From a virus: 31,103 nucleotides of DNA. Numbering within the stretch: the stretch's first letter is position 1; the number at the start of each line of letters is the position of its first letter. The notes under the pieces are model-generated. The model was not told the origin of the DNA. It was given only the letters and a program-made list of their open reading frames with translations, and did no database searches. Below are positions 1 to 31,103 of the stretch, piece after piece. The position numbers and the translations under genes are program-made. The DNA lies in the IMG/VR virus record IMGVR_UViG_3300040801_000888, positions 1-31,103 of that record; one strand, given 5' to 3'.

Positions 1-117
1 TCCATCTGGACGGTGTCGGCGCTTTGCGTACGCGCGCGCTTTTCTTAAGTTGTGGGGGGGCGCATTCGGAGCGGGTTTTTGGGGAACGGAGGGGGGTGAA
101 AAGAATTTTAGGGGTTA
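1..117. repeat. left terminal inverted repeat (117 bp, perfect)
   Basis: Bases 1-117 are the exact reverse complement of 30987-31103; identity stops at base 118. By my count about 67 of 117 bases are G or C, far richer than the AT-rich interior. The plus strand has G runs at 54-60, 73-75, 81-84, 91-96 and 111-114, a perfectly alternating purine-pyrimidine stretch at 25-39, and a small inverted repeat at the tip (TCCA/TGGA, 1-10). The last three bases, 115-117, are the TAA stop of the neighbouring spanin-like gene. It could be a true linear end, one copy of an inverted repeat inside a larger genome, or an assembly product. Confidence 0.97.
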
Positions 118-624
118 GAGACGTGATTTCAACTTCTTTAAAAAGTTAGACAATCCATTACCTACACTACCAGTCCGTAATTTAAACCCAAGCCATAATA
201 AAGTCAACGCATTAATCCCAAGAGACCACCAGGCCCATCTAGGTATAACCGTCACTGTTTCTACAACAAGCTTATCTTTATGGTCTAAATCAAAGGTAGA
301 CCGGAATTCTCGAATAGCAACCTGCTTAATAGAATCAATATTAATCGAGGCTTCTAACTTATTGTCTTTTATCTCTATTTTTAACGCGGCTAAATCGGAG
401 TCAGATGATATGTTGACGTCTGAGGGTAATCCGGTAACGGAGTCACAGAGCTCTTCTATAACAACCTTAGTTTGTAATGGCAAAGTTACAGTCTTAGAAG
501 TATCAATATATATAGTGTCGCGTTTAACTACCGTAGAAGATTCGCTGCTCTTAATAGACTTACAACCCACCACCCAACTTCCGATAAAAAGAAGTGCCGC
601 AAAAAACCAGTATGACCTATTCAT
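115..624 (-). CDS. u-spanin-like lipoprotein (lysis)
   Basis: A 169-aa protein with the architecture of a unimolecular spanin, which fuses inner and outer membranes in the last step of lysis of Gram-negative hosts. Residues 1-21 form a lipoprotein signal (basic N-terminus, hydrophobic core, lipobox VVGC with the lipidated Cys21). A long periplasmic stretch follows, and residues about 129-148 form a Trp-rich transmembrane helix with a basic cytoplasmic tail. An upstream ATG at 648 would add eight residues, but the ATG at 624 overlaps the endolysin stop (ATGA) and gives a proper lipoprotein signal, so I prefer it. It directly follows the endolysin, the usual spanin position. The stop codon lies inside the left terminal repeat. 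Spanin is inferred from architecture, not from sequence similarity. Confidence 0.72.
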   Translation of the reverse strand: MNRSYWFFAALLFIGSWVVGCKSIKSSESSTVVKRDTIYIDTSKTVTLPLQTKVVIEELCDSVTGLPSDVNISSDSDLAALKIEIKDNKLEASINIDSIKQVAIREFRSTFDLDHKDKLVVETVTVIPRWAWWSLGINALTLLWLGFKLRTGSVGNGLSNFLKKLKSRL

Positions 625-1049
625 GTTAATTCGTACATTACCTCCCAATTCTCATCAAACAATATTCTTTTAGTTCCCTTGTAATCAAGGTGAATAAAGT
701 TCTTAGAATCGTAAAGAGCTATTCTTTTGTATTGTGTTTCTGTGTTTAAGTGAGCAATTAAATCCCACTTATGTTCTTGAAAATTTTCACATGTAATATC
801 AACAGCTCCGAAACCTTCAAAAGTGTGTTGAGAATCACCTGACCGTTTTTTCTTTATTTCATACCACTTAGGTCTGTACCCAGAACGTTTAGAAATAACC
901 AGTTTCAAACCGGAGACTTGGCATACCCTAGCTAACGGGATAAGATGATGCATCAAAATTTTATCCGCTACATCCTGAGGTATTGGGCCTCCGGTTATAT
1001 TGAAATCGCTTATGTTGAAATGCTCAACTATTTTATTTGTTGCTATCAT
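621..1049 (-). CDS. endolysin, M15-family peptidase
   Basis: A 142-aa single-domain zinc peptidase of the M15 (D-Ala-D-Ala carboxypeptidase/VanY-like) type, expected to cut peptidoglycan peptide cross-links at lysis. The family pattern is clear: SGYRP at 56-60, then SQHTFEGFGAVDI with zinc ligands His75 and Asp84, and the third ligand His120 in FIHLDYKG. The length fits a bare catalytic domain without a cell-wall-binding module. There is no signal peptide or membrane segment, so export should depend on a holin; candidates lie just upstream. The stop codon overlaps the start of the spanin-like gene. Confidence 0.88.
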   Translation of the reverse strand: MIATNKIVEHFNISDFNITGGPIPQDVADKILMHHLIPLARVCQVSGLKLVISKRSGYRPKWYEIKKKRSGDSQHTFEGFGAVDITCENFQEHKWDLIAHLNTETQYKRIALYDSKNFIHLDYKGTKRILFDENWEVMYELT

Positions 1050-1058
1050 AGTTTTTGT

Positions 1059-1766
1059 TTAATTAGGTTTATCAATATGTCTTAAAAGCTCGTCATCTTT
1101 TAAGTTCGGTACTTTTAGTATTTGCTCTATTTCCCCTAACATACGACCAGTAAAAACAAGTTCTACTCTTCTTTTCTCCATTTTAGTTAAAGGTTTTTCA
1201 TCGCTAGTTGAGAAAGATGAAAAAACTAATAAGTCGTTAAATTCATCAATCGGCAATCTTTTTATAAATCCCCATCCAATTTGCTTAATGCCCTCGAGTT
1301 TTATGTATTCACCCATTTGACCAACATTAAAATCTGGATGTGATCTCCAAATAAAAATATGGTCCTCCATTTTATGTAACATGTTTACATAACTTTCATC
1401 TATTGGAAAACGAGCATAGGGACTAATGTTACCAATACTTAAGTCTGTTTTTGATTGATCAAATATAGCAGTCATATAATTAAAATCTATTTTACCATTC
1501 ATAACAAACATGATTGTAAATCTGTCTATTCTTGAATCTTTAAAGATTGTTCTTATATATTTTTCTAAAGCGCTAAACCTTTGAAAATCGAACATTTCTT
1601 TTATAGTCTTTATTTTAGACTGATATATATTGTCTTTTAATTTGTAGTTTTCTTCGCTTTTCTTGTTTAATTTTGTTTTTAATCCTTTGTTAACATAAGT
1701 AACTAATCCAGTTGCTAAAGCCAATACGGCAGCAATAAACGTTGAGTAGTCATCCAGCATTTTCAT
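1059..1766 (-). CDS. membrane-anchored protein with GAF-like domain, in the lysis cassette
   Basis: A 235-aa protein with one N-terminal transmembrane helix (about residues 8-26), a charged Lys/Glu-rich helix that may form a coiled coil (28-60), and a globular alpha/beta domain (about 65-220) whose strand pattern and long C-terminal helix resemble a GAF/PAS-type sensor fold. The fold call rests on overall look only; I see no diagnostic ligand residues. The start overlaps the upstream membrane-protein stop (ATGA), and the endolysin starts 9 bases after its stop, so it is co-translated with lysis genes. It may regulate or time lysis. It could also be an unrelated host-interaction protein. Confidence 0.6.
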   Translation of the reverse strand: MKMLDDYSTFIAAVLALATGLVTYVNKGLKTKLNKKSEENYKLKDNIYQSKIKTIKEMFDFQRFSALEKYIRTIFKDSRIDRFTIMFVMNGKIDFNYMTAIFDQSKTDLSIGNISPYARFPIDESYVNMLHKMEDHIFIWRSHPDFNVGQMGEYIKLEGIKQIGWGFIKRLPIDEFNDLLVFSSFSTSDEKPLTKMEKRRVELVFTGRMLGEIEQILKVPNLKDDELLRHIDKPN

Positions 1767-2131: not shown

Positions 2132-2182
2132 AATTAATCCAAAACCATAAAGACAAACACTCGACCCCGGTGTTAATAACTA

Positions 2183-2395: not shown

Positions 2396-2424
2396 AATAA
2401 GGGTTTTAAAGGTTAATAATTATT

Positions 2425-5400
2425 TTAAGACGTTATCCATTGTGTGCCATCCCAATACTTAAATGTAGCTGAAGCCCATTGTGTACCTGTCCACTTAAAT
2501 ATAGACACATACACCCACTGGCTGCCATTCCAAGCTTGAACCAGTGTCTGTTCTCCAGCTATCCGTAAAGAACCGGCAGCAGTAATTGCCATGGCAACAT
2601 CCCCAACCAATGGCACTTTTGAACTTAACGCTCCTTGAATAGTGAGGTCCATATTAACGTCACCACCCAACTTTCGAATTATCTTGGTTTCAGCTGAACC
2701 GGCTTGTAAATCTAAAATAGCGTTACCAGTTAGATAAACAGTGTTTCCAGTTCCTAAATCACCATTAGTAGATAATTCTAATATAGCATTACCTATTAAA
2801 CTTAACTTTTGATTTAAACTTCCAGATGCATCCAGTATTAAAGCTGTATCTCCATCAAGAGAATACTTAGTCTTTAATTCAGGCTGATTAGAAATTAAAC
2901 TTAAGTCAACATTTCCTTGCAGTTGTACATTAGCAGATTGTAATGTTAAATCTCCGCTTGTATCTATTGTCAAGAACGTGTCACCAGTAATAGATACTAA
3001 TCTAAGTAAATCACCTGCGGATATTAATGATAAATCAACATCTCCAGATAAGCTTCTTCTTAATGATGCTTGAGCCCCAGCTGTTATGTTTATATCGGTA
3101 TCTCCAGTTAAAGAAACCTTAGCTACAATGTCTCCAGCTGAGTCTACACTTAATGCTGTTGCTCCTTGTAATTGCTTTTTTAAACTCGCGTTAGCGTCTA
3201 CAGCCATTAATAAATTAACATTACCAGATAATGCTAAAACTTGATAAGCCGTTAAATCTCCTGTTGATATTATACTTAATGGTGTGTCACCTGTTAATTG
3301 TAAAACTTGAGCTCCTGGTTCTGTAGCTATATAAAGATCGACTGCATTGTAGAAATCGGTATGGCTTATTAATCCTCCAATCGCTACAAAACCTATTGTA
3401 GCATCGCTATAACCTGAGCCTCGTCTTAGTATTTGAAATGTACCACTTGTCCTTGTAAATCCTGTGGCTATTGTCGTATCTTCTGCTACAAAAACCCCAT
3501 CTTTCCATACTTCTGCATTTGAGGAATCGGTATCAGCAGATATAACACCGCTTGTTGTTACGCTGTAAGGTAATGTATTACTTTCAATAAGCTGATTGTT
3601 TCCTGAGCCTGTAGTTAATAAAAGAATAGGAACGCCAGCACTACAACCGAAAGCATTTCCACCGCTTGCACCAACGTTAACCGCTTCCATAGAAGCAAAG
3701 GCGTTTTGCGTTCCATAATTAATAGTATTTAATTGGTTAATATTTGTATCGATGTAAGCACTGGTTCCATTCCCTTGCACACCGTTTGTGTTAAAGGTGG
3801 GAAAGTTAAATTCTGTGGCTTTGGTTCCGCTTGGGTCTTTCCAATTAATCAGTTTAAAATCTGAGCTTCCCGAGTGCTTAAACCAATAGAAACAATCCAA
3901 ATCGTACCATACCCCTGTGGATTTCATATCCGCAAGGATGGCGTTTTGGTTCTCCTGCTCCTCAAATGTTGGCAGGGTATATCCCAAAGAACGAGCCTCA
4001 TCCAATATCGCTTGGTACTCTACCTCAAAATAAGGGTAACGCAGGGAATCTATAATGTCCTGCTCGCTCCCTACTAAGGAAGAAGAAATAATGCTGAATC
4101 TGATTTTACCATCGCCCCTAAATGGCCCAGCACCTAAAAAATAAATTGTTTCGTTTTGTAATGCTCCTGAGTTGTGGCTTACAGTCGAATTGTTACCTTC
4201 TATGCCATGTATTTGCTGTGTAGCGTTCTCCCTTGATGCTCCGTACAACCCAGCGGTATCAATCGTAAATAATGGGCCTAAAGAACCATCCGAATTAATT
4301 TTCGGACGCATTAAAATTGTATCTACAGAAATATTATAATCGCCTCCAGATGAACCACCGTAAATCTCATGCCTGTTTGCTGTTTGCGAAAGGTTGATAA
4401 TATCAACGTAAATCCCTGCATCGTTTTGCAGGTAATTGGTTCCGTCTGTGCTTAGGTTAAAGTTGCTATTAATACCAGCCCCGTTTGTGTCTACCGCCGA
4501 ACCAGTTACCCCTTCTTCATCCCAAGTCAAAGGGTCTGTTCCTAGACCTGCAATAGCTCCTTTTGCTCCTGCCGGGTTAATCCAGTTTATGAATTTAAAA
4601 TCTTGCCCTGGGCTATCACCCTGATAAACAAAAAGGTGGTCGATTGAACTCCACAATCCTTTTTCTTTTAGGTTGCGAACCATCTCGTTGTGTCGGGCTT
4701 GCCATGTTGCTGATGGCAAAGTGTAGCCCTGCGTAGTGGCTTCTGTTAGTATGGCTTGGTACTCTGGCTCGAATCCATTTTCGGCTGACATAACAGCCGT
4801 GTACATATCGGCTTGGGAGTAATTCCCTCCAATAGCAAAGAATCCTATTATACCATTGAAATCATAAATTGACCCGTTACCTATATGCCATTCGCTATAA
4901 TCGTCTACGTTGTTTGTTGTGCTTAATCCTGTGCTGGATGGCGAGCCTAAAGTTGCCCCGTCTTTATAGGCTTGTACTTGAGAACCGTCAAAACCACCTC
5001 CTAATATTTTACTTGTGTTTTCAGAAAAATCTACAAAAGTATCTACATCCCAATATCTTAAAGAGGTTATTCCCGATGATGCTGTACAGAGAAAAGTTGT
5101 TATGCTGGTTGAAACTCCAAATAAAACATCGCCTCCAGCTGCTCCAACTACAGGGTTATCTGTTCCCCTGTTTCCTGTCAAATCCCAAACGGTAAACCCA
5201 GAGCCTGTGCTTAGGTGGTTTACAAGTGCTGTTTGGTGTGGAATTACATGGGTGTTGTTTGTATTACCGTAGCCCTCCCAGCCCTCTGCTGTGGTTATTG
5301 GTCTACTTAAATAAGTACCGTTATAGGTCGCTTTGGTCGCTGTAGGTGTTGTCCAATCAATACTTTTGAAATCGTCATCGCCAGAATCCCTAAACCAGTA

Positions 5401-6756: not shown

Positions 6757-6767
6757 TTAAAAGTGTT

Positions 6768-7175: not shown

Positions 7176-7176
7176 C

Positions 7177-7605: not shown

Positions 7606-7629
7606 AACCTTTAATTTTAATTTTTATTT

Positions 7630-8900: not shown

Positions 8901-9371
8901 TTAAAACGGACATAAATCTTTGTTAGAAATAGTTTCTGTTCCAGCATCCCAATACAATCTGCTTGTACCGTTTGAATACCATCCAGTAGGTCTTGGTGTA
9001 CAATTGCCATTGTTATCCGTATATAATCCGGTAGTGTTATTTAAAGCTGTGCTTGACCCATATGTTGATGTTAATATAGTTGTATGATTGGCGCAGTTTG
9101 AATCTGTTGCGTGATATCTTAAATTAAACTGTTCAACAATAAAAGTCGTGTTACATGAACCCCCTCCGCCACCAATTGATTCGCCGTAAAAATCAGACAT
9201 AGCTATTCCAATTGTAGGTAAGCTAAAGTCTGTAGCTGCATCAAATAAAGAGTATGCACCTGTTTCTCCAGCTTCGCTTCGAATGTCGCCTATTGATATA
9301 GGCCCTGAACTTTGAAGCTGACTAAAAACAAAACATGGAAATAATAACAACAAAAAACCGATTCTTCTCAT
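8901..9371 (-). CDS. exported tail-tip-like protein with signal peptide
   Basis: A 156-aa protein with a flavobacterial signal peptide (basic MRR, hydrophobic core, ending CFVFSQ at 13-18). Next comes a motif frequent in phage tail proteins: GPISIGDIRSEAG (23-35), then a FSLP turn, then IAMSDFYGES (56-65). A Gly run leads into a Cys-containing beta-rich domain with four cysteines, which could form disulfides outside the cytoplasm. It overlaps the S74 fibre gene by 4 bases. A signal peptide on a protein with a virion-type motif is unusual. It may be an exported protein that borrows the motif. Confidence 0.6.
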   Translation of the reverse strand: MRRIGFLLLLFPCFVFSQLQSSGPISIGDIRSEAGETGAYSLFDAATDFSLPTIGIAMSDFYGESIGGGGGSCNTTFIVEQFNLRYHATDSNCANHTTILTSTYGSSTALNNTTGLYTDNNGNCTPRPTGWYSNGTSRLYWDAGTETISNKDLCPF

Positions 9372-11245
9372 CTCAGGGCCTTTTTCATTTTATTTAATTT
9401 ATTTTCTAACTCTTCGATTCTTTCATCTTGAGCCTTAATTGCTTCAATTAATAATGGAACAATTTTATCGTAGTTCACTTGCTTATAACCAGCTGTTGAA
9501 GTTCTTACTGCCTCTGGTATTACAGCTTCAACTTCTTGAGCAATTACGCCGATGTCTTTTCCGGACTTACCGCTTATGCTTTCGGCTATTCCTTTCCACT
9601 TGTAGCTATACCCGCCTAATTGTTTAACTTTTTCAACAGGATTACGTATTGGCTTAACATTTCGTTTTAATCTTTCATCAGAAGTGGCATAAGCAGTAAC
9701 ATCCCCTCCTGCGTTTATATTTCCTTCAACACCTAATCCTCCGCTAGCTACAACTAAAGCTCCTGTATCTTTTGTGGTTGATGTAGCTATATTAGAAAAT
9801 GTTATTATATTAGAAAAAGTAATTGCTCCGCTTGCAGAGTCTGTTGCGTCACTTCTTAAAAACTGAGAAGAGGTTACACCGTCAACATCATCTGCTGACA
9901 AACCAGAGCCAGAGCCATCATTATAGTTTGTCCATATTTTGTGCCAAGCTGTCCAAGCATTAGTGCCATACTTTGTTCTAAACCAGGCCCCAGCATTACT
10001 CTGGGTTGTTGAGTTAGCATAATATGTTTGTAATTGAGTATTATTTGTTCCTGTTTGACTAGATGCTAAAACACCGTACCCATATGCTCCGCTAGGCATA
10101 TTAGAGCCTGTAGCGTTCGTCGCTAGTCTAACTGCGTTATCGGTAAATGTATCCCAATTTTCTGTACTTACATTTGAATTTTTAATTGACCTATTAAAAT
10201 CAACGCTATCAAATCCGTCAAATAAATCAGTATCAACCCCAGAACCAGAACCATCGTTTCCTAAAGTTATAACTCTGTTACCGCCTTCATACAAACGAGT
10301 CGCGTAAAGATACCCATCGTAATTTAAACGAAATGCAGCTAATGGTGTTGTCGTGCCGCCATAAAACATTCCGTTGCTACGTGTGGTTCCATTGTATCTT
10401 AGAGCTCCAACAGTAGTCGAACCAGAAGCAATTGACGTCATGCCAAAAGAAAAATTTCCGGTGAGACTACCGCCGCCTGTAAGGCCCGTGGACGCTGAAA
10501 TTGTGGTGGAAGATAATGCAAAACTGGCTGAACTTAAATTGTCTAATAAATCAGCATTTAAACCTGAACCAGCCCCATCAACAACATTTATTTGTCCTGA
10601 CAGGTCATCATAGCTCAATTGGTTATTTGCCATCGTACCGACAATATCTTCAATTTGCTCTTGAGTATAACCTGCTGGCAAAGCATCTACTTCATCTTTT
10701 AATTCGTTAATAACGCTTTGTAAGTTTGTGGTGCCTAAAGTTAAATAAGGAACAAAAGATATTTCACTGGCTTCATCTTGCCCTGCTAAACCAGTAGTTA
10801 ATTCCGTGCTTGTTGCTAAAGCGCTTAAGTCTATAACTGGATTAGTTTGATTAGGTATAGTTAATGTTAAGTTACCAGCTGCATATGAACCTCCAGTTAC
10901 AAAATCATTACCATCTGAACCACCCGCAACTAAATTACCTATTGCAACGTCTATACCTGCTAAATGTGCTTCAAGGTCACTTGTTAAAGGTGTATAATCA
11001 GTAGGTGATAAAGCTATATCAATATCAATACCGTCTGCCGCGCCCGCAAACACCTCCACCCAACTTCCGGAAGCGCGTAAGCGCAAAATGTCGTCAGTGC
11101 CAAAGTACAATGTTCCATCACCCCAAAACGCATTCGTAGGAGCTGAGGCTTGTTCTTCAAGTTTTAAAACCGCTGTTGCAGTACCTGATTGTGAATAAGC
11201 TAATGCGCCTATTATTAAAGCGCATAATGTTAATAGTTTTTTCAT
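9368..11245 (-). CDS. tail fibre with C-terminal S74 self-cleaving chaperone and N-terminal signal peptide
   Basis: A 625-aa fibre. The N-terminus (MKKLLTLCALIIGALAYSQ) is a typical flavobacterial signal peptide. The middle has repeated fibre motifs (SGLNADLLDN, GSGVDTDLFDGFDS, GSGLSADDVDG) and beta-strand-rich Ser/Thr stretches. The C-terminal 105 residues are the intramolecular chaperone of the S74 peptidase family: SDERLKRNV with the Ser522/Lys527 catalytic pair (same spacing as in MYRF), IGVIAQEVE, VNYDKIVPLLIEAI, and a terminal trimeric coiled coil (about 600-625). The chaperone drives trimer folding and then cuts itself off. The signal peptide is odd for a cytoplasmically assembled virion part, although flavobacterial chromosomes also encode exported S74 proteins. 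Confidence 0.82.
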   Translation of the reverse strand: MKKLLTLCALIIGALAYSQSGTATAVLKLEEQASAPTNAFWGDGTLYFGTDDILRLRASGSWVEVFAGAADGIDIDIALSPTDYTPLTSDLEAHLAGIDVAIGNLVAGGSDGNDFVTGGSYAAGNLTLTIPNQTNPVIDLSALATSTELTTGLAGQDEASEISFVPYLTLGTTNLQSVINELKDEVDALPAGYTQEQIEDIVGTMANNQLSYDDLSGQINVVDGAGSGLNADLLDNLSSASFALSSTTISASTGLTGGGSLTGNFSFGMTSIASGSTTVGALRYNGTTRSNGMFYGGTTTPLAAFRLNYDGYLYATRLYEGGNRVITLGNDGSGSGVDTDLFDGFDSVDFNRSIKNSNVSTENWDTFTDNAVRLATNATGSNMPSGAYGYGVLASSQTGTNNTQLQTYYANSTTQSNAGAWFRTKYGTNAWTAWHKIWTNYNDGSGSGLSADDVDGVTSSQFLRSDATDSASGAITFSNIITFSNIATSTTKDTGALVVASGGLGVEGNINAGGDVTAYATSDERLKRNVKPIRNPVEKVKQLGGYSYKWKGIAESISGKSGKDIGVIAQEVEAVIPEAVRTSTAGYKQVNYDKIVPLLIEAIKAQDERIEELENKLNKMKKALR

Positions 11246-16432: not shown

Positions 16433-19400
16433 TTATGTCCATCTTGATTGAGAGTCTCTGTATCGATCATCTCTTATTACGTTGCGAACAGTTATATTGT
16501 TTTTTAGCTTAGTTTTATTTAAAGCTCTTGAAAACGATTCTGTTAAGTCTTGCATTTCACCATGCTTTCTTTGAGCATTAATATTTTTTATTTTAAATAT
16601 GCTCGAGCGACTAACCATGTCTTCGTAATCCTTGTATACCGTATCACCTTTTTTCAAGGCTACAACAGCGTTTTTTCTGTCAGTAGATAATATTCTTCCA
16701 TTACGCTCAACGTACTCTTTAAATCCACCGTCATTAATCATTGCAACTTGATCTTTACTAAGGTTATCAACACCTTTGCGATACTGTGGTATAGGAGCTG
16801 AAAGAACCGCTGCTATTTGAGCCGCTCCTAAAGCCGACATAACTCCAGTCATAATTGCTGCTGTTGCACCAAAATCTACTTTCGGAAAGTCAGCCCATAT
16901 ACCTACAATTGCTCTTGCGGTATTAATCATGATATCCGCCACTGCAAATTTCTTTTTCGCTTTAGCCGCTTTCTGCTCTTCTTTTAATCTATCTCTTTCA
17001 AGCTTTTTAAGTCTATCTTCTTTATTCCTTTCAAGAGTTTTTTGCTGTTCCTCATTATCTTCAGCTAAAGCTATAAGTCTATCATACTTATCTTCTTCAG
17101 CGCGTATTTCTGCATTTATATTTTCTATACGCCTATCAAATTGAGCGTCGATTATATCTCCTATAGCTCTTGAAAATTGCCTTGTTATTTGAAGAACTTC
17201 ATCCCAAACGTCTTCCCAATTATCAACATCAACCGGTGTAGTTATTTTACCAGCTTCAAGTTTATCTATTTGTTGTAGTAAAGAATTTATGTACTCTTCA
17301 TTGGCTTGGCCAGACGCTCTTAAAGTTTCTATTTGAGCATTTAGCTGTTCAATCTGAAGGTCTATAATAGCATTTACCTTTTCTCTTTCAGCATCTACTA
17401 ATTCAATATTCAGTCGCTTTTCATCTTCAGCTCCTTTTGCTGATGCTTCAAAAGTCTTTTTAGCTAAGGCTATCCTTTTGTCAAATACATTTTCAACAGC
17501 AGCTAGTTGCCTGCTTTGACCAACGCTTTCAGTTGTATCAGAAGCTTTTTCAATAAAGTCGTCATTTATCTTTATTAAGTCATTACTTAATTTTACAGCT
17601 TCAAGCCTAATAAAATCATTCTTCTCTTTTTCAAGACCTTCTATTTGAGCAATACCCTTAGCCCTGGCTACAGTGCCTTTTTCTATTGACGCTTCAATAG
17701 ACGCTATCTCGCTTGCTAATTTATCTTCAGCATCATTTACTTGAATTTTAAATTCATTACGCCTTGCCTCTGTTTCAAGTTTAGCTGATTTTTTAAGAGC
17801 TGCTAACCTAACGTCTAAATCTAAAGTTTCATCTCCAAAAACAGACAGGTTTTTATCTGCAACAAATTTTTGTATTTCAATAACAGTTTGTAGCCAATAA
17901 TCTTTCAATCGACGTAACCTTCGTTGCGTGACCTTAACTTCAGTCTCGGGAAGAACAGAAACATTACTATTCTCCACCAACTTTCGCCATACGTTGTATT
18001 CTGCTGCCGCTTGAGAATAAATAGCTCGAGCTTTATCTAAATCATCTTGATTAATTCCAAGAGCGCTTGAAATTCTTTCGCCGGTTTTTACAGCTTCAAA
18101 ATCAGCATAGTAATCATCATAAATTCGTTTTGCTTCAAGATATTCAGTATATACTATATCAATTCTTTGTTCTGCATTTACTTTCATTCTCGCAACAACT
18201 TTCTTCTCTTTTTCTGCTCGTATGCGCGCTATTTCATCTATTCCGTTTGAGATTATTATCCTTTCTTCTCCTACAGCGGTTTTAAGCCTTTCAAAATAAT
18301 CGTCTTCAAGTTTTTTAAGTTGTCTCTCTTGTTGATCAACCGGACTTAATTTATCTATGTATTCACGAGTACTTGTCTCTAAAGCTTTTTTAAAGGATTC
18401 TTCATCAACACTTATTCTAACCCGCATTTCTTGCTCTTCCGTTTGGAGCATTCTGTCCCAGTCTTCAAGTATTTGATTTGTATAATCTAAGAAACCTCCA
18501 AAGACTCTTTTAATTACACTATCACCTTCAGATATATTTTTAATAAAAGTTTGCCAACTAGCGGTTAGTCTATTTTGTTTGGCTATTAAAGTTTCAATAC
18601 GTCCTTCATTTTCAATTCCGTATGCTCTTTCAACAGCTTGAGCAAAATCAGGTAATACTTCAGCAGAAAGTACTTCACCTTTTTTAAGCATTTTATCTAA
18701 CTCAGGGATTGTTACTCCAATAGATGCCGCCATGATACCCATTGCGCCTGGCAATCTTTCACCTAACTGACGACGTAATTCCTCTGTTGTTATCTTTCCT
18801 TTAGATAACATTTGTTCAAGAGCTAAATAAACACTGGTAAGCTCATCTGTATTTAAACCGAGTACAGCCGAAGCCTTTGTCATCGATTCAAATATGTTTT
18901 CAGTTTCGCGTAATGCTAAACCTGATTCTTGAGCAGCAGCTAAAAACCTTGACCAACGTGTTGTAGTGGTGACTAATTCAACACCGTAAGCTTTTGTTAT
19001 TCTTAAAAGAAATCTTTGTGAATTCTCAAAGTTAAGCTGGCTTTTCGTTACTTTTTCTAACGTAAAAGCAAGAGAGTCAAATGTCTTAACTGTGGTAAAT
19101 ATGTTTTTACCTAGGGCTAACATTTGTTGCCCAATAGCTAATATTCCACCTGCTTTAAGAAGATTAAGTATACTAGCTGAAAACCCAGAAAAGGCCTTAC
19201 CTCCTCTTTTAGTTGCTTTTGCGGCTCTATCCTGGGCTTTGATCGCATCATCCAAAGCTTTTCTAAGCTCTTTTAATTTTTTCTTATTTGATTCAATTGC
19301 GGCGTTTTGATCTCTTACAATCGCTTTCAAATAATTCATTTTATTACCAAGCTCTCCAACTTTTACTCTTACTCTTTTTATGCTGTTCTCCATCTTTTTA

Positions 19401-19519
19401 AAGTTGGCAGCAGTAGTTGAGCCCATTGTAGAAGATGCTTTTTTAAGGGCATTTAACTCAGCGGCTAAATTCCTGATTTCAGCAAGAGCCTCTTTCGCAT
19501 TTATGTTTAACTTAGCCAT
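16433..19519 (-). CDS. tail tape measure protein
   Basis: A 1028-aa protein that sets tail length. The N-terminal 100 residues are a charged coiled coil. Residues about 105-150 include a hydrophobic stretch (GFSASILNLLKAGGILAIG). Residues about 190-295 hold the hallmark of tape measure domains of the TMP_2 type: AAQESGL, ASAVLGLNTDEL, MLSKGKITTEELRRQLGERL, PELDKMLKKGEVLSAEVLP. A long heptad-rich coiled coil follows (about 400-880), then a hydrophobic segment (FAVADIMINTARAIVGIWADF) and an Ala-rich region. By the usual 1.5 angstrom per residue rule the tail would be roughly 150 nm long. Its start overlaps the chaperone candidate by 8 bases. Confidence 0.93.
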   Translation of the reverse strand: MAKLNINAKEALAEIRNLAAELNALKKASSTMGSTTAANFKKMENSIKRVRVKVGELGNKMNYLKAIVRDQNAAIESNKKKLKELRKALDDAIKAQDRAAKATKRGGKAFSGFSASILNLLKAGGILAIGQQMLALGKNIFTTVKTFDSLAFTLEKVTKSQLNFENSQRFLLRITKAYGVELVTTTTRWSRFLAAAQESGLALRETENIFESMTKASAVLGLNTDELTSVYLALEQMLSKGKITTEELRRQLGERLPGAMGIMAASIGVTIPELDKMLKKGEVLSAEVLPDFAQAVERAYGIENEGRIETLIAKQNRLTASWQTFIKNISEGDSVIKRVFGGFLDYTNQILEDWDRMLQTEEQEMRVRISVDEESFKKALETSTREYIDKLSPVDQQERQLKKLEDDYFERLKTAVGEERIIISNGIDEIARIRAEKEKKVVARMKVNAEQRIDIVYTEYLEAKRIYDDYYADFEAVKTGERISSALGINQDDLDKARAIYSQAAAEYNVWRKLVENSNVSVLPETEVKVTQRRLRRLKDYWLQTVIEIQKFVADKNLSVFGDETLDLDVRLAALKKSAKLETEARRNEFKIQVNDAEDKLASEIASIEASIEKGTVARAKGIAQIEGLEKEKNDFIRLEAVKLSNDLIKINDDFIEKASDTTESVGQSRQLAAVENVFDKRIALAKKTFEASAKGAEDEKRLNIELVDAEREKVNAIIDLQIEQLNAQIETLRASGQANEEYINSLLQQIDKLEAGKITTPVDVDNWEDVWDEVLQITRQFSRAIGDIIDAQFDRRIENINAEIRAEEDKYDRLIALAEDNEEQQKTLERNKEDRLKKLERDRLKEEQKAAKAKKKFAVADIMINTARAIVGIWADFPKVDFGATAAIMTGVMSALGAAQIAAVLSAPIPQYRKGVDNLSKDQVAMINDGGFKEYVERNGRILSTDRKNAVVALKKGDTVYKDYEDMVSRSSIFKIKNINAQRKHGEMQDLTESFSRALNKTKLKNNITVRNVIRDDRYRDSQSRWT

Positions 19520-23186: not shown

Positions 23187-24398
23187 TTAAGGAGCTTCGA
23201 TTGCAGCGACTACAGTTGCAATAGTATCATACACAAATGCCGCTTGATCTAAGTTCTTAACGTACTGGAAGTACCTTGACTCACCAACCATTGTGAATTG
23301 GTTAGTAGTAAACTGATCGTTAATCCATCCAATTCTCACGGAGAAAGGAACGTAATTAACAATGTTGTACTTGCTCATGTCAGCAACAAAAATCTGCCCT
23401 GCAGGAATTTTTGCCCAGGGACGAATTGTTACCCCTCCAATGTTAACAGAGTTGAACAGGCTTGCTTGAGGGTACAGAGGCAATCCATTCGCGTCTTTAG
23501 CAGACTGGAATTGTAAGAAAAAGTCAATTGGGCTAATCATTACTACGTTTGGCATGTAATGTGCCTCGTCAGTAAAGTTTGCAGTTGTGTAAATGTCAGT
23601 GATGATAGCGTTAACTACATCCATGAAATTACTTGCTCCAGATGCAAAAGCATTGGCCATTGAACCCGCTACAAAAGTACGTCCGTAAACGGTTGCTCCT
23701 GTTGGGTTGTTTCCAGTACCATCTCCAAAGAAAACTCCGTTAACTTTGAAAAGATCGTGCTTCTTGCGAAGGAATTCACGTGCAACAGACTCCATCCTTG
23801 CGTAGTCAGTCACGGCTTCTTCTGTCAAGATTTCATGCGCAGCAGCTTTCCTTGGCGTCAGGTAGCGAGTTTCCCATCTGAAATCAATCAGAGGTTTCGC
23901 GCCTGCTTCTGCTACGAATGCGTAATCACCTTCTTTCGGAAGCATTTCCGTATAGGCAATTGCGGCCTGGCTTGTGTTTGTTACAGTACAAAGGCTCAAT
24001 AAAGAATTATCATCCCGTAGGTTGAAACTTCCTAGTTGAGCATTCATAACTTGAGGCGCAGCAGTACCAGGCTCAGTTCCGCTTGCAGTGGTTACAGCCG
24101 CAGGGGCTTTTTCTGCAAATGGATTGAATTCGATTTCACCTGCTCCAGCTTTGTAAATCTTCGAAATTTCATCTTTGTTCTCCCAAAGGAAAGACGCGAA
24201 CTCTTGTTCGTAGGTCTTCATAACCTTTGCTTCCTGGGCGTCAATGAAATTCTGAAGTGCTAGTCCCTGGTCTTCAACAGCCTTGATAGCTTTCTGAAGC
24301 TCATCTTTCGAGGCTCCTGAATCTTGAAGACTTTTCAATTCTGCTTGAACGTCCTTGAATTTTTGATCAAGCATGTTTTTGATTTGCTCTTCGTTCAT
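23187..24398 (-). CDS. major capsid protein, HK97 fold
   Basis: A 403-aa protein typical of HK97-like capsids. Residues about 1-75 form a charged coiled coil (scaffolding delta domain), likely removed by the neighbouring protease. From about 105 the mature capsid begins: an N-arm, then EMLPKEGDYAFVAEAGAKP, an E-loop-like segment, TEEAVTDYARMESVAREFL (spine helix), and FFGDGTGNNPTG near residues 222-233, a signature of this family. The C-terminal part (MISPIDFFLQF, NIGGVTIRPW, ADMSKYNI) forms the A and P domains. It lies behind the prohead protease with an 85-base leader, the second largest true gap among structural genes. Confidence 0.93.
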   Translation of the reverse strand: MNEEQIKNMLDQKFKDVQAELKSLQDSGASKDELQKAIKAVEDQGLALQNFIDAQEAKVMKTYEQEFASFLWENKDEISKIYKAGAGEIEFNPFAEKAPAAVTTASGTEPGTAAPQVMNAQLGSFNLRDDNSLLSLCTVTNTSQAAIAYTEMLPKEGDYAFVAEAGAKPLIDFRWETRYLTPRKAAAHEILTEEAVTDYARMESVAREFLRKKHDLFKVNGVFFGDGTGNNPTGATVYGRTFVAGSMANAFASGASNFMDVVNAIITDIYTTANFTDEAHYMPNVVMISPIDFFLQFQSAKDANGLPLYPQASLFNSVNIGGVTIRPWAKIPAGQIFVADMSKYNIVNYVPFSVRIGWINDQFTTNQFTMVGESRYFQYVKNLDQAAFVYDTIATVVAAIEAP

Positions 24399-25284: not shown

Positions 25285-25423
25285 AATGCTTTCTTATTAC
25301 TTCATTGTTCCGTAACTGATTCTCACGTTTCTCCCTACCCAACTTCAGATTTTCTTTATCCGACTTTGTTAAGGAAGGAGCTCCAATCTTTTTCTTCTTC
25401 TTCTGTTCCATTTGAGTTGTCAT
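25274..25423 (-). CDS. small basic protein overlapping portal and protease genes
   Basis: A 49-aa frame that starts inside the 3' end of the portal gene in another frame (ATG at 25423, overlap 68 bases) and ends inside the first codons of the protease gene (overlap 11 bases). It exactly spans the 71-base gap between them, the kind of packing seen across the whole operon. The product starts MTTQMEQKKKKK, is highly charged (Lys, Arg, Glu, Asn), lacks hydrophobic segments and is probably helical in its second half. No family recognised. It could be a true small head gene or a coupling frame. Confidence 0.5.
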   Translation of the reverse strand: MTTQMEQKKKKKIGAPSLTKSDKENLKLGREKRENQLRNNEVIRKHYGV

Positions 25424-26651
25424 TATTTTCACTGTTTTGAGCTTGCAACATTTCCCCTAATTCAATAGTAGGGTCAAAGCCACTCATTTCAAGCGCTATT
25501 TCTTTTGGAACTCCAACACTTAGAAGGGCTCTTAAAGAATCCGCTTGTTTTTTAACTACATCATAACGCTCAAGTCTGATAAACTGCATAATTGGCAAAT
25601 GCTCATACGAACCTTTCAATATAATTCCTGAATCTTGAAAGTGTTTATTAAAAACAGCGGTCATGTTATTCAAGAATGATTGCATTTCGTTTTGAACATA
25701 AGACACCATAGACTCCTTAAAGTTGTTATAAGTAGTCTTTTTAGCTTCTAAGGACAAAATGTCTTTTGGAATGTGTAATGCAGTGTAGATAATGTTACCG
25801 TCTACTTTTGTACTTTCGTCAAGACCTAAATCTCGAAGAGCAATGTGCAAGGATTTCCACTCTAAATTTGCTTTAGTAACTATACCTCTTTTACGAGAAT
25901 GAGAAAGCCCTACTTGTCTATTGAAAATTCTTTCGACTTGTTTCTTCTCTTCTGGGTTCAAAGGGTATCCATCTTTCTTTGCGGAAATCATCTCTTTGCC
26001 ATTACTTTTTAGAATAATGTTTTTTGCTATAAGACTATCAACTGTGTTGACGAGTGTTTGCCTTAAGCCATCTATTCTACTGGCACACGTAAATGGATTT
26101 TGTTTTGTTCCGTTAGCTAAATCATAAAAAAACATTAAGTCTTTTATCTTATAACGGATATTTTCGCCTTTTTCATCATAGACAATACTTAAATTCATTA
26201 CTGTCTTTGAATTCTTTTTGAAAGGACTTTTTATGAATTCCTCTGGCCACTTGATTAAATCTTTGTTTAATACATAAAGCGCTTTTGGCTCGCTGAAGCC
26301 TATAATTTTTTGCTTGGCTACAATTGCTACGCCCTGAGCTATCTGCATAAACATCAAGGTCTCCAGGAAATCTTCTTTGGTCTGGTAAGGATTGGGATTG
26401 TTAAGTAACTTTGTCAAAAAGTCACCTCTTTTGCGTTGTTCGCCTCTAAGATTTTCAGTAAAAAACTCAGCTTGCGAAAATAATTTGGATACGAATAATA
26501 TCGCAGGAGTGAGTATTGGATGATTTTCTGCTAACTCTAAATTGGTTAGTGAACCTACCCAATTTTCAGCGGAAGTGATGTCATACATGTTATCCCCTGC
26601 TTCATTCCTGGTCCATACTGGCCACGTGAATCTTGGTATGGTTAATCTCAT
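25356..26651 (-). CDS. portal protein, HK97 type
   Basis: A 431-aa portal subunit; twelve copies form the ring through which DNA enters and leaves the head. Recognisable elements: ENHPILTPAILFVSKLFSQA (N-terminal helix region), LLNNPNPYQTKEDFLETLMF followed by QIAQGVAIV (about 80-112, the common portal wing signature LLxxPNxxxT...F), and a long stem helix region with LEAKKTTYNNFKESMVSYVQ. The acidic C-terminus (NGTEEEEKDW) is typical. Order terminase-portal-protease-capsid supports the call. Confidence 0.9.
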   Translation of the reverse strand: MRLTIPRFTWPVWTRNEAGDNMYDITSAENWVGSLTNLELAENHPILTPAILFVSKLFSQAEFFTENLRGEQRKRGDFLTKLLNNPNPYQTKEDFLETLMFMQIAQGVAIVAKQKIIGFSEPKALYVLNKDLIKWPEEFIKSPFKKNSKTVMNLSIVYDEKGENIRYKIKDLMFFYDLANGTKQNPFTCASRIDGLRQTLVNTVDSLIAKNIILKSNGKEMISAKKDGYPLNPEEKKQVERIFNRQVGLSHSRKRGIVTKANLEWKSLHIALRDLGLDESTKVDGNIIYTALHIPKDILSLEAKKTTYNNFKESMVSYVQNEMQSFLNNMTAVFNKHFQDSGIILKGSYEHLPIMQFIRLERYDVVKKQADSLRALLSVGVPKEIALEMSGFDPTIELGEMLQAQNSENNDNSNGTEEEEKDWSSFLNKVG

Positions 26652-26711
26652 AATAACAAATGTAGCAAAAAAAAATTATATATAAAAAGAAATTATGATA
26701 TTTTTTATCAT
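26652..26711 (-). promoter_or_regulatory. AT-rich region between terminase and portal genes
   Basis: This 60-base gap holds an inverted repeat ATGATA/TATCAT (26695-26700 and 26706-26711, 5-base loop) directly after the terminase stop, then a run of nine A residues on the plus strand (T on the coding strand). On the minus strand TACATTTG (26664-26657) matches the Bacteroidetes -7 box TAnnTTTG, close in front of the portal ATG. I do not see a clear -33 element at the right distance. Either a weak terminator/processing hairpin or a promoter for the portal-capsid genes. Confidence 0.3.
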
Positions 26712-28010
26712 TTAAACTTGTATACCTAAATACTTAACAAGATAAGTAATTACATAGCGTAGAACATCCATGTAATGATCGTCTTTTTTTACAGGCTTAT
26801 CTGTTGATTTACCATATCGATCTACTTCCCACGAATAATTTACATATTCTTTATTAAAACTTGACGACAACTCGTGATCTTCGACAAAATAAATAGTAAA
26901 CCCTTGAACTAAAGTAATCCCTGGTTGAATTGAATCGTTGCCTTTAGGAGCTCCTTCAGCTAAATAACCAATATCTCGCAATATATCTATATATGTTCTT
27001 TTAGCCGAGTCGCATACAACTAAGTCATAACCTAATTTCATCATAGGGACTTCATTAGCAAACACAGACGACATCGAGATGTCTACCGAAGTTAGGGGGC
27101 GATAGAAGCGCGGACAAACGTAAAAAGCCCCGTCTCCATCGTATTTTATTTCGAGTATAGCAGTTGGGTTAAACGTGCCGAAATCTATTCCGAAATAACT
27201 TGTTTCAGCTATAGAATCAAAATGCTCAAGAGATATTTTCTTCCAACCTCTATATATACGGTTTGGTTTTTCAGCGCCTATTCCAAGACCATATACCAAC
27301 CACATGTATTCGTCAGCTGTTCCTCTTTTTACATTTAGTTCATTTGGAGGAGGTTGATTTTCCCTGGTTATAGGAGCGCCTTTATAAATGGGTGTAGAGT
27401 CTATAATTTTATAGCTTCTACGTTCCCATGGTTCGTATGACATTAATTGCTCTACAATATTCTTAGGGCAATAAGCGTTGTGCTCAAATGTGGAATGTAT
27501 AAATGTGGTGTTAGGGTCGTGCCTATAATCTTCTAACCAAAAATCTTTACTTGGGTTGTAGTCGCAGAAGATGGTTTCAGCTGTTCTTTGTGTAATTTGC
27601 AGGTAAACTGGTTTTGCAAATTCGGTAACCTCGTTGAAGTATGATATGTCCTGGGCGCCACCCAATACTTTACCAACACTGTCTGCTCCTTCAAATATAA
27701 TCTCTGAGTTAGTAGGCTTGTAAACGAATTTTCCAAGTTGTTTATTCTCTTTAAATTTTTTGTAGGTATTGTAGTCAAATAGAATTATTTTTTTGAAGTC
27801 CTCCATTACAGTTGCACGACAAACCACTTTTGTATCACGCCAAACAGTTATTTTAATCCTGTGCCTACTTAGCATAACCAGCATTAAAATTTGAAGTATG
27901 GAATAGGTCTTTGAACTTCTTGACCCACCCATACTTACTATTTGCCTGTACTTCCCAGGGTAATAAACTTCAGCTGTTCTTTTGAACGTTTCAGTTACGT
28001 TTATATCCAT
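26712..28010 (-). CDS. terL: large terminase subunit (TerL)
   Basis: A 432-aa DNA-packaging motor of the PBSX/Terminase_3-like group. The ATPase part has a Walker A loop MGGSRSSKTYS (residues 27-37, Lys34 and Thr35), a Walker B segment ISYFNE (122-127) with catalytic Glu127. The RNase H-like nuclease part has three acidic motifs: FGIDFGTFNPTA (near 273), LVVCDSAKR (near 332) and DDHYMDVLRY (near 408). The length is usual for this group. Its start overlaps the preceding gene by 10 bases. Confidence 0.95.
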   Translation of the reverse strand: MDINVTETFKRTAEVYYPGKYRQIVSMGGSRSSKTYSILQILMLVMLSRHRIKITVWRDTKVVCRATVMEDFKKIILFDYNTYKKFKENKQLGKFVYKPTNSEIIFEGADSVGKVLGGAQDISYFNEVTEFAKPVYLQITQRTAETIFCDYNPSKDFWLEDYRHDPNTTFIHSTFEHNAYCPKNIVEQLMSYEPWERRSYKIIDSTPIYKGAPITRENQPPPNELNVKRGTADEYMWLVYGLGIGAEKPNRIYRGWKKISLEHFDSIAETSYFGIDFGTFNPTAILEIKYDGDGAFYVCPRFYRPLTSVDISMSSVFANEVPMMKLGYDLVVCDSAKRTYIDILRDIGYLAEGAPKGNDSIQPGITLVQGFTIYFVEDHELSSSFNKEYVNYSWEVDRYGKSTDKPVKKDDHYMDVLRYVITYLVKYLGIQV

Positions 28011-28363
28011 TTATAAATCCACTCTACTAAAGTTATTACTCCAAACACGGCTCCAATAGAAGCTAATACCATAATAATTAAAACCATTCTAAACCCTGGC
28101 TTTTTAACATCAAATCTTGCCCAATCATAATTATATAGCTTATCCCACTGAAATCCTTCCAGCTTATTTATTAAACTTTCTGTTACAGCTTCTGCTTCTT
28201 CCAGGTCCATTTTTTGTACCCTCATTAGTGCCCATATTATCTGAGGTCTACTATAGGTAGGCTCGTTCCTGGTTAATATTGGAGGGTCTTCGTCATCTCC
28301 ACAAATTAAATTTACTAATTGTTTTTTATGCAAAGTCTCTATATAATCGCGATAGCTACCCAT
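28001..28363 (-). CDS. unknown protein with C-terminal membrane helix, upstream of TerL
   Basis: A 120-aa protein with a soluble helical N-terminal region (residues 1-85, with DLEEAEAVTESLINKLEG) and a C-terminal transmembrane helix (about 93-115) ending EWIYKWI. It overlaps both neighbours (8 and 10 bases). I do not recognise a family. The position next to terminase suggests a packaging-related role, but a tail-anchored membrane protein is unexpected there. Confidence 0.6.
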   Translation of the reverse strand: MGSYRDYIETLHKKQLVNLICGDDEDPPILTRNEPTYSRPQIIWALMRVQKMDLEEAEAVTESLINKLEGFQWDKLYNYDWARFDVKKPGFRMVLIIMVLASIGAVFGVITLVEWIYKWI

Positions 28364-28718
28364 TGTTTTTAATTATTGAATTTATTATATCTTTAAATGT
28401 ATTTAAGTCTCTTATCAAATAATAAGGCACGTTTTGCTTCTCAACTTTTTTCTGCCAAGCTATTTGCTTTTCAGATTGCTCGCCAAACTTGTTTTTTAAT
28501 TCAAAACAATAAACTTTACCCTTGTATATAAATAACATATCCGAGACTCCCGGCACAACTCCAGTCATTTTAAATATTTTTCCCTGCAACGCAGTTCGCG
28601 CGCCTCCATTGGGAACGGCAAACAATAATCCTCTTAATTCTATATGTGTATTGTTAAACCACACATAGCATTCAGATTGTATTGCGTCTTCACTCTTCCA
28701 GGTTTTTCTCCTTGTCAT
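28356..28718 (-). CDS. VRR-NUC domain nuclease
   Basis: A 120-aa single-domain nuclease of the VRR-NUC group (PD-(D/E)xK superfamily). Core features are Glu10 and Gln14 in KSEDAIQ, VPNGGAR (35-41), the GVVPGVSD turn ending in Asp60, the FELK motif with Glu73 and Lys75, and Gln85 in SEKQIAW. This set matches stand-alone phage VRR-NUC proteins, thought to cut branched or flap DNA. The frame opens at a GTG (28721) but the ATG at 28718 is the likely start, overlapping the previous stop in GAGTGATG. Next to terminase it could trim DNA during packaging. Confidence 0.85.
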   Translation of the reverse strand: MTRRKTWKSEDAIQSECYVWFNNTHIELRGLLFAVPNGGARTALQGKIFKMTGVVPGVSDMLFIYKGKVYCFELKNKFGEQSEKQIAWQKKVEKQNVPYYLIRDLNTFKDIINSIIKNNG

Positions 28719-28849
28719 CACTCTATTTTTTTGCTAATTGTTAATTTGTATTCACAGAATTTATTGTTGCAAACCTTATTAGTAGTGCTGTCTGTAAAAA
28801 CTTCATGCTCTAATCTATGTCCACAATATTGACAATATTTTGCTTCCAT
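28718..28849 (-). CDS. 43-aa zinc-ribbon mini-protein
   Basis: A short gene between two junction motifs. The product has CQYC (Cys6, Cys9) near the start and a second pair, Cys27 and Cys32, giving a four-cysteine zinc ribbon, with His11 and His15 nearby. The stop TGA overlaps the next gene's ATG (TGATG), and the start follows the same A-rich motif as its neighbours. Function unknown; zinc ribbons of this size often bind nucleic acids or proteins. Confidence 0.7.
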   Translation of the reverse strand: MEAKYCQYCGHRLEHEVFTDSTTNKVCNNKFCEYKLTISKKIE

Positions 28850-28853
28850 CACT

Positions 28854-29174: not shown

Positions 29175-29178
29175 CACT

Positions 29179-29448: not shown

Positions 29449-29459
29449 TATCTATTTCT

Positions 29460-29684: not shown

Positions 29685-29689
29685 ATCTC

Positions 29690-29722
29690 CTATATTTTAA
29701 TAACTTCATCCTGTATATTCAT
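29690..29722 (-). other. possible 10-codon mini-frame between two genes
   Basis: An ATG at 29722 directly follows a copy of the junction motif (GAGCGATG) and opens MNIQDEVIKI before a TAG, 5 bases ahead of the next gene. All other ATGs at this motif begin real genes. It may be a remnant of a deleted gene or a coupling leader. Too short to claim as a protein gene. Confidence 0.2.
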
Positions 29723-29726
29723 CGCT

Positions 29727-29876
29727 CTATTTCTTTAAATCCTCTCGAATGTCGTTAATGAGTTTTCCTGTTTCTGATTCCTCGTCTGTTATTGCCCCTC
29801 CCAAGGTCATAATATCTTTTCCTACTGCTAAGGGGGTTTGAATTACTACTCTGGCGATTGCTTTTAATATACTCAT
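29727..29876 (-). CDS. 49-aa phage protein of unknown function
   Basis: A small protein opening MSILKAIARVVIQTPLAVGK and ending REDLKK. The N-terminal half could form an amphipathic helix; the second half is acidic. It fills the space between two clear genes and its 3' end is a copy of the junction motif, read in the LKK frame. No domain recognised. Confidence 0.55.
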   Translation of the reverse strand: MSILKAIARVVIQTPLAVGKDIMTLGGAITDEESETGKLINDIREDLKK

Positions 29877-29893
29877 GGTTTATATTTAATGGT

Positions 29894-30130
29894 TTAATTT
29901 TCTATTTCTTTAAGGTATTCTTTCGCATCTTCCCTAAGTTGCAAATAATCTCCCATTGAAGGGGGGTCTGCTGTGGAAAATTGATCGTCTTGGTAAACCC
30001 ATCTTTTTATGAGGCTTATGGCTTTATTGTTTTGCTCATGCGAAAAGGCTTGCATTACTTCATACCTGTTTCTTAAATCTTTTTCATCACGTATCCATTT
30101 ATCATGATATGCTCTTGCTTCTTCACTCAT
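29894..30130 (-). CDS. 78-aa charged phage protein of unknown function
   Basis: A 78-aa protein, helical, with DKWIRDEKDLRNRYEVMQAF and a second helix LIKRWVYQDDQF, ending LKEIEN. The start overlaps the previous stop (ATGA). The 3' end contains the CTTAAAGAAATAGA motif in the KEIE frame, but here without an ATG directly behind it. No family recognised. Confidence 0.58.
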   Translation of the reverse strand: MSEEARAYHDKWIRDEKDLRNRYEVMQAFSHEQNNKAISLIKRWVYQDDQFSTADPPSMGDYLQLREDAKEYLKEIEN

Positions 30131-30318
30131 GGTTTAATTAATTTTTTTCGATTTTTAATTCCATAAACATTACAATCTTTATGCGTATCCATATCATATC
30201 CTTCAAAGGTATCTCCAATTAACATTAATTGAGTCGGTAAATGAGATTGATCTCGGTATTTAGCCTTAATCTCCTTACCACAATCTTCACAAATCCAAGG
30301 TTTTCTATATCTTGCCAT
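30127..30318 (-). CDS. zinc-binding mini-protein
   Basis: A 63-aa basic protein with CEDC (Cys10, Cys13) near the N-terminus and HKDC (His46, Cys49) near the C-terminus, a CxxC...HxxC set expected to bind one zinc ion. The frame opens at a GTG (30321), but the ATG at 30318 overlapping the previous TGA is more likely. Possibly a nucleic-acid-binding or regulatory protein; no named family. Confidence 0.65.
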   Translation of the reverse strand: MARYRKPWICEDCGKEIKAKYRDQSHLPTQLMLIGDTFEGYDMDTHKDCNVYGIKNRKKLIKP

Positions 30319-30746
30319 CACTCTATTTCTTTTTTATTGTCTTTAATTTCTTTGTGTTCAATATCTTCAGCGCTTATTATTTCCCTTTCGCCTTTATTAT
30401 TTATAACCGCTAAGTTTATATTTATAGTGTTATCTGGCTGTTGAATCTCAGCACCTTCAGCTCTGATTAATTTAGGTTTAGAGTACTCGATTAATTTCAG
30501 GTAATTCCTGGCAAAATCCCGGTCTGGCATGTTCATTAGAATACCGATAAATTTTTCGGTTAAACTGCCATCTATCATTTTTTTAAGCAAATCCCATTGT
30601 GTCTCGCCGTCTTCTAATCTCTCTTTAATTTCAACTAACGTTCCCGGGGGTAATTCTTTTTTATCATCATCTACTTTATTTTCAATTTGCTTTTTAATGG
30701 AGTCTGCCATTGCCTCCTTAAAAATATCTTTCTTATCTTCCTTCAT
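30318..30746 (-). CDS. small terminase subunit candidate
   Basis: A 142-aa charged protein. The N-terminal 45 residues are Lys/Asp-rich helix; the central helices (QWDLLKKMIDGSLTEKFI, DFARNYLKLIEYSKPKLIRA) end in a KPKL..AEG element, followed by a beta stretch (NTININLAVINN) and an acidic tail. Helical proteins with an EY.xPKL...E element before a short strand resemble small terminase-like proteins of Bacteroidetes phages. No clear helix-turn-helix is seen, and it is separated from terL by eight small genes, so the call is tentative. Confidence 0.4.
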   Translation of the reverse strand: MKEDKKDIFKEAMADSIKKQIENKVDDDKKELPPGTLVEIKERLEDGETQWDLLKKMIDGSLTEKFIGILMNMPDRDFARNYLKLIEYSKPKLIRAEGAEIQQPDNTININLAVINNKGEREIISAEDIEHKEIKDNKKEIE

Positions 30747-30915
30747 TTTTATTGTCGTTTCTTATAGCGTGTAGTTCTTGACTTGCAGATATGTAGTCGC
30801 GCATCATCTGCTCAACAGTCTCGCTCATTTCAACGCTGTTTTTTATACATTCAATTTTAAAAGCCTGTTTCACTTCTTTATTGATTGTAACGGTTGTAGC
30901 TATTTTATCACTCAT
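30733..30915 (-). CDS. ribbon-helix-helix DNA-binding protein
   Basis: A 60-aa protein with the CopG/Arc-type layout: a strand KIATTVTI (4-11), helix one EVKQAFKIECIKNS (13-26) and helix two SETVEQMMRDYISAS (31-45). Such dimers bind operator DNA through the paired strands. It is the first gene of the whole leftward unit and has the only substantial upstream region apart from the repeats, so it may autoregulate. It overlaps the following gene by 14 bases. Confidence 0.7.
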   Translation of the reverse strand: MSDKIATTVTINKEVKQAFKIECIKNSVEMSETVEQMMRDYISASQELHAIRNDNKNEGR

Positions 30916-30986
30916 TTGCTTATGGATTTATATACATGTGCAATTATACAAATTTCTAACGAGATATGAAAATGTGGTACGCTAAA
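30916..30986 (-). promoter_or_regulatory. leader and putative operator/promoter of the leftward operon
   Basis: The 71 AT-rich bases between the right terminal repeat and the first gene must hold the promoter for the operon if transcription begins inside the window. Two direct TATACA copies lie at 30931-30936 and 30945-30950 (14-base spacing), with ACATGT overlapping the first; such spaced repeats could be an operator for the ribbon-helix-helix protein encoded next. On the minus strand TATAATTG is one base off the Bacteroidetes -7 box. No element is certain. Confidence 0.35.
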
Positions 30987-31103
30987 TAACCCCTAAAATT
31001 CTTTTCACCCCCCTCCGTTCCCCAAAAACCCGCTCCGAATGCGCCCCCCCACAACTTAAGAAAAGCGCGCGCGTACGCAAAGCGCCGACACCGTCCAGAT
31101 GGA
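30987..31103. repeat. right terminal inverted repeat (117 bp, perfect)
   Basis: Exact reverse complement of bases 1-117, so the C-rich strand is on the plus strand here (runs of C where the left end has G). It ends the window and lies 71 bases upstream of the first gene. No gene is visible inside it. The two copies show no difference, even in the seven-base homopolymer, which suggests recent copying, replication-linked identity or assembly duplication. Confidence 0.97.

Follow-up and report, generated by a model that had tools for sequence, protein, structure and literature searches.

Inverted repeats around the late genes of a tailed-phage family point to a genome in four parts

Background

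A phage contig that ends as it begins, in the same sequence read in the opposite direction, raises the question of what it represents: a whole linear molecule, a segment of a larger genome, or a product of assembly. Viral metagenomics takes inverted terminal repeats as a sign of complete genomes. The window, i.e., the whole stretch of 31,103 nucleotides analyzed here, is an IMG/VR-type virus record at its full length and carries such a repeat. Comparison with its relatives makes it likely that the window represents one part, the late single-copy segment (A), of the larger genome of a marine-type tailed phage, whose circular map would be composed of A, an inverted repeat (IR), an early segment (B), and a second IR.

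The window and its terminal repeat

Bases 1-117 are the reverse complement of bases 30987-31103 with zero mismatches, and the match ends at base 118; the perfect 117-bp repeat described in the first-pass annotation is thus borne out. No further inverted repeat of at least 16 bp occurs within the window, which excludes chance as the source. The G+C content of the repeat is 57%, compared with 36% in the window body. The left copy (1..117, plus strand) lies at the end of the late unit, and its inner edge is the stop codon of the last late gene (115-117). The right copy (30987..31103, minus strand), its exact complement, sits ~72 bp upstream of the first late gene, where relatives break or carry IRs. 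An exact search of IMG/VR, phages, and plasmids, from which near copies of the window may be missing, found no copy of the repeat outside this contig.

All sizeable genes of the window read leftward as one late unit, in agreement with the single leftward series noted at first. The unit encodes a VRR-NUC-like nuclease, the large terminase (TerL), portal, HK97-type capsid, tape measure, fibres, and an endolysin-like protein; its terminase, portal, HK97 capsid, and tape measure are those of an HK97-type tailed phage (Caudoviricetes). The first late gene (30733..30915, minus strand, as are all that follow) encodes a small conserved protein, 60% identical in the related contigs G001/G002. The second (30318..30746) is conserved as well, and from its position it may encode a small terminase. 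Further along lie the genes for the VRR-NUC-like nuclease (28356..28721; PHROG 824/93), which is 43% identical to the VRR-NUC protein of Muminvirus snusmum, the large terminase (Terminase_3, 26712..28010), the portal (25356..26651), the HK97-type major capsid protein (23187..24398), the tape measure protein (16433..19519), and a tail fibre with an S74 endosialidase chaperone (9368..11245). The last two genes (115..1049) encode an endolysin-like protein (weak Peptidase M15 match) and a 177-aa protein with its stop codon on the IR edge; the latter, previously called a spanin, matches a PHROG of unknown function. Among the window ORFs no replication or recombination gene was recognized except small nuclease-like genes. 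The beginning of the late unit also carries a 21-bp direct repeat, at 28847 and 29172, with a distance of 325 bp between the copies.

Late units in relatives

The inverted repeat is not unique to the window, since relatives carry their own repeats at the same place. A tape-measure scan yielded two contigs, G001 and G002, many proteins of which are 40-71% identical to those of the window. G001 (26.4 kb) has a 123-bp inverted repeat at both ends, in the same position relative to the genes and with a different sequence. G002 is identical to G001 (100%) over 22.6 kb and then continues for 5.5 kb past the repeat into phage genes, including those for thymidylate synthase and a DnaQ-type exonuclease; therefore, the repeat is internal in the G001/G002 phage.

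A terminase-alignment scan of IMG/VR matched 127 places, 80 of which were kept; ~65 of these constitute one family (~65 contigs) with TerL identities of roughly 40-71%. Eight contigs, the window included, show the late unit from edge to edge, and an inverted repeat brackets the unit in all eight: G000, G001 (123 bp), G008 (341 bp, 88% alike), G015 (25 bp), G023 (234 bp, 99.6%), G026 (127 bp), G027 (1571 bp), and G033 (110 bp). The repeat sequences are unrelated between species, and the bracketed late contigs occur in both main branches of the TerL tree. Late contigs with the terminase near a contig end, 44 of which were examined (a few species are represented more than once), terminate 6-266 bp upstream of the first late gene in 36 cases, so assemblies break there as a rule. 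Five contigs (G002, G033, G007, G013, and G023) run past the repeat into early genes for kilobases. A scan of GTDB genomes for prophage relatives gave one distant match.

Early segments and their joining to the late ones

Early-region contigs of the family were recovered by scanning first with the DUF5906 primase-like protein and next with the helicase; they encode a helicase, the DUF5906 primase-like protein, Erf, an exonuclease, and methylases. Eleven of them are also bracketed by inverted repeats: G033, G036 (=L140; 123 bp), B141 (=L141; 192 bp, 97%), B143 (=L143; 23 bp), G037 (=L144; 141 bp), B147 (=L147; 357 bp, 95%), B148 (=L148; 127 bp), G039 (=L151; 127 bp), G038 (=L152; 2893 bp), L161 (87 bp), and L162 (123 bp). 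In G033, a tRNA gene lies just inside the early segment (32854-32927; L155:854-927). No early half belonging to the phage of the window itself was recovered, and the window is placed by way of its relatives; from these we infer that the window's own genome has an early half and a long IR.

Assembler k values must be odd. So is the length of the window's repeat (117 bp), and stub lengths are odd in 14 of 15 short exact stubs; 117, 123, and 127 bp were dropped as biological lengths in favor of assembler k. One species reveals what lies beyond such stubs. Both ends of the early contig L162 (sample 3300008255) are exactly G030:1-123, and G030, which comes from a different sample, starts at the very base where the two ends of L162 part; it contains an element of 4648 bp, followed by late genes. 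The late contig G021/L059, from the sample of L162, starts at G030:4526, and L058, from a third sample, at 4522. Because these starts lie 123 and 127 bp before the common edge at G030:4648, the contigs show one k-mer of a shared element of ~4.65 kb; JGI runs MEGAHIT and SPAdes with k rising to 123 and 127 (PMC6646334). The 117 bp of the window are probably the assembler-visible stub of a longer repeat, the true length of which would be measured in kilobases.

A single contig of 45.9 kb, G033, comprises an IR stub, the late segment, a complete 2153-bp element, the early segment, and another IR stub. The late segment is bracketed in the window and seven relatives, and the early segment is bracketed by the element's other edge both in the species of L162, G030, and G021/L058 and in G033. 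Since the pieces L162, G030, L058, and L059 fit together and G033 spans late segment, repeat, early segment, and repeat, the genome is quadripartite. Long copies are found at both ends of G027 (1571 bp) and G038 (2893 bp). Two complete IR copies and both segments do not occur together in any one contig; full-length duplication of the IR is read from the forks at assembly breaks and from the long copies of G027 and G038. In relatives, contig sequences show two IR copies of 2.2-4.7 kb, their position at both joints, homogenized copies, and genes moved across the borders. Another relative, G022 (46.4 kb), closes as a circle, its ends overlapping by 25 bp and an open frame continuing across the overlap; it has no such IR.

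According to this model, segment A would span ~24-31 kb and segment B ~10-14 kb, separated by an IR that would be mostly non-coding control region. Its A edge would lie at the late promoter and its B edge would carry TAAAAAAC iteron-like arrays and early promoters or terminators, with one or two small genes inside. Short-read assembly breaks at the IR, which leaves no more than k bases of the repeat on either side of a contig. The earlier suggestion that the contig had simply stopped at an inverted repeat is literally true.

The exactness of the terminal repeat and the existence of several late contigs with IR ends also agree with a true linear replicon with protein-primed or hairpin ends, of which the window would be the complete molecule; such a linear element with inverted ends had been proposed at first. 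It is very improbable, as the five relatives mentioned above continue past the repeat into early genes, the early contigs' own IR ends meet the same element, and no replication gene is recognized among the window ORFs. The protein-primed phages phi29 and PRD1 have terminal inverted repeats, and the contig ends resemble theirs; in those phages the repeat is the end of the molecule, whereas here it is internal in relatives. No protein-primed polymerase was found: PolB with a terminal protein was not recognized among the window ORFs, the early regions being partly annotated.

A different linear form, resembling herpesvirus virion DNA, would have one complete IR joining A and B and two partial copies as physical ends. 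G033, which begins and ends in partial IR copies and has one full A-B joint, could be read in this way, and the agreement of crossing contigs on orientation is compatible with it. The long copies at both ends of G027 and G038 and the stop of G030 at the exact B fork fit two complete copies better, which leaves this form unlikely.

The coincidence of stub lengths with k values (PMC6646334) might also suggest an assembly or library artefact, namely a second copy added by the assembler or by fold-back chimeras. This is hardly credible: three samples, assembled with two k values, give identical borders, the copies in G008, B147, B141, and G023 are imperfect (88-99.6% identical), and the genomic position is conserved across divergent species.

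Concerted evolution and border shifts

Plastid genomes follow the plan LSC-IR-SSC-IR, with concerted evolution of the IR copies and movement of genes across the IR borders. Both features have counterparts in the phage family. The early segments of G036 and B141 share 88% identity. Within each genome, the repeat copies are 100% (G036) and ~97% (B141) alike; between the two genomes, the repeats are 69-71% alike by alignment (~80% in the best part by local BLAST). As the likeness within genomes exceeds that between genomes, the IR copies change together, in accord with their being kept alike by recombination.

In G023, G026, and G027, the terminase has changed both its strand and the end of the late segment at which it lies. 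In G027, the VRR-NUC gene, an RHH-like gene, and two other small genes are duplicated in both repeat copies (1-1571 and 25410-26980), and the repeat border falls inside the first codons of two different genes, which share their first six codons and both start with MSDSKV. The terminase shift and the G027 border are marks of copying across the repeat, like those at plastid IR borders. Concerted evolution of the copies and the genes that crossed the repeat borders together support recombination between copies. The Erf-like protein and the exonuclease of the early segment could perform this copying: homologous recombination, probably by this pair, would homogenize the copies and might sometimes invert A relative to B. 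The IR copies may be paired control or origin regions. The phage family resembles plastid genomes in its quadripartite plan, its concerted IR copies, and its border-crossing genes, and differs in being a tailed phage of ~45-50 kb with a mostly non-coding IR.

Orientation of the segments

All five contigs that cross the IR fit one orientation: in G002, G007, G013, and G033 the TerL-side edge of A is joined to the DUF5906 end of B, and in G023 the opposite edges are joined. A second join across the IR within one species was searched for and none was found; a candidate pair, L044/L047, was rejected as two joins, because the contigs diverge only in an AT-rich spacer. Since all crossing contigs share one orientation, active inversion is without direct support. 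Of the flippable late segment proposed in the first-pass annotation, the bracketed segment within a larger genome stands, as seen in relatives, while its flipping is plausible. The early genes of G022 are inverted relative to the late ones in comparison with G007, G013, and G033; this shows inversion on the evolutionary time scale and no more. A DUF805b cis-regulatory RNA also lies among the early genes of G022 (27008-27039; L120:7008-7039).

A stronger form of the four-part model holds that recombination between IRs keeps flipping the late against the early segment, so that both orientations coexist, as in herpes simplex virus. Concerted copies, gene traffic across IR borders, the Erf and exonuclease genes in B, the inverted B of the IR-less circular G022, and contigs that stop at exact forks all favor it. 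Five crossing contigs in one orientation and the lack of a species with both joins weigh against it, and gene conversion without inversion would produce the same homogenization; the case is nearly balanced, tilting slightly to the negative. Somewhat more tentatively, a whole clade of tailed phages of Bacteroidota (the host is inferred from relatives) might have herpesvirus-like isomerizing genomes, in which Erf-driven recombination between inverted control regions of kilobase length would turn the late half against the early one and the twin repeats would be paired origins and promoters.

Comparison with known systems

Herpesviruses and tailed phages belong to one virion lineage, that of HK97. 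In herpes simplex virus, recombination between inverted-repeat copies generates isomers (PMC8539067), and two unique segments (UL and US) are each bracketed by joint inverted repeats holding control regions, as in the phage family. Sequence and genes are unrelated, however, and any flipping or physical ends of the phage genome would be putative, its circular map being suggested by the IR-less relative G022. The invertible segments Mu G and P1 C are also phage segments between inverted repeats, but they measure a few kb, whereas the segment considered here is ~30 kb long, contains the whole virion operon, and is flanked by a repeat of non-conserved sequence. No site-specific recombinase of the Gin/Cin type was found in the window or among the early ORFs scanned.

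By virion proteins (~22-48% identity), the closest cultured relatives are the Polaribacter phages Danklef (Forsetiviridae) and P12002S, Tenacibaculum phage JQ, and Flavobacterium Muminvirus. Their late gene order is similar, and no comparable inverted repeat occurs in the genomes of Danklef, P12002S, JQ, and Muminvirus. A tailed phage with this genome plan was not found in the open-licence literature, which did yield herpesvirus isomers (PMC8539067); a two-segment genome split by large inverted repeats was previously known from herpesviruses and plastids, with no tailed-phage example found. The family offers a testable phage model for repeat-driven isomerization. According to a gut survey, inverted terminal repeats occur in phage genomes more widely than the well-described phages would lead one to expect; the survey listed such repeats among the signs of artefacts (PMC9610469); split genomes of the quadripartite type are a possible further cause of these genomes. 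Here, contigs with inverted terminal repeats are late or early halves, each of which is entered as a virus of its own.

Contents of the repeat

Two small genes (153 and 128 aa) lie in the element of G030, most of which otherwise lacks recognizable genes; the G002 counterparts of the two genes are paralogous to each other. Neither Pfam nor PHROG gave a convincing match for the small IR proteins, and none of them matches a known fold: one of the gene families gave a model of moderate confidence, with a pLDDT of 76, without a fold match, and the second did not fold.

At the late edge, a near-palindrome, TCCATCTGGA, is common to the IRs of G001/G002 and G030 and occurs in the window at 1..10 (plus strand) and, as a second copy, at 31094..31103 (minus strand). 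G008 has TCCACCTGGA in its place. The share of shuffles with a site of the TCCATCTGGA/TCCACCTGGA type in the IR stretch is 0-0.007. As a universal recombination site TCCATCTGGA was rejected, because G023, G026, G027, and G033 lack it.

In several species the early edge carries arrays of TAAAAAAC, with ten occurrences in 357 bp of B147 (0.24 in shuffles), 11 in G038 (0.52), and seven in G029 (0.28). The arrays are located at B147:99-308, G038:2637-2776, G029:291-508, and G023:26-154 and 2959-3078, with further ones at G013:5391-5747 and G007:27197-27443. They may be the iterons of an origin or sites to which an early regulator binds.

Other features of the early edge differ between species. In G033, the repeat includes a start codon that serves inward genes at both ends, and in G036 a terminator-like hairpin within it follows genes that read outward; what is conserved is therefore the place of the repeat and not its content. 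The idea of the IR as a pure duplicated promoter was dropped, given the window's left copy behind the last gene and the terminator-like hairpins of the G036 copies.

The repeat region of G002 also contains a type I hammerhead ribozyme (L008:4428-4477, minus strand), which scores 35.3 bits, above the Rfam threshold. A second, sub-threshold hammerhead-like match lies ~240 nt downstream on the same strand (L008 4177-4244).
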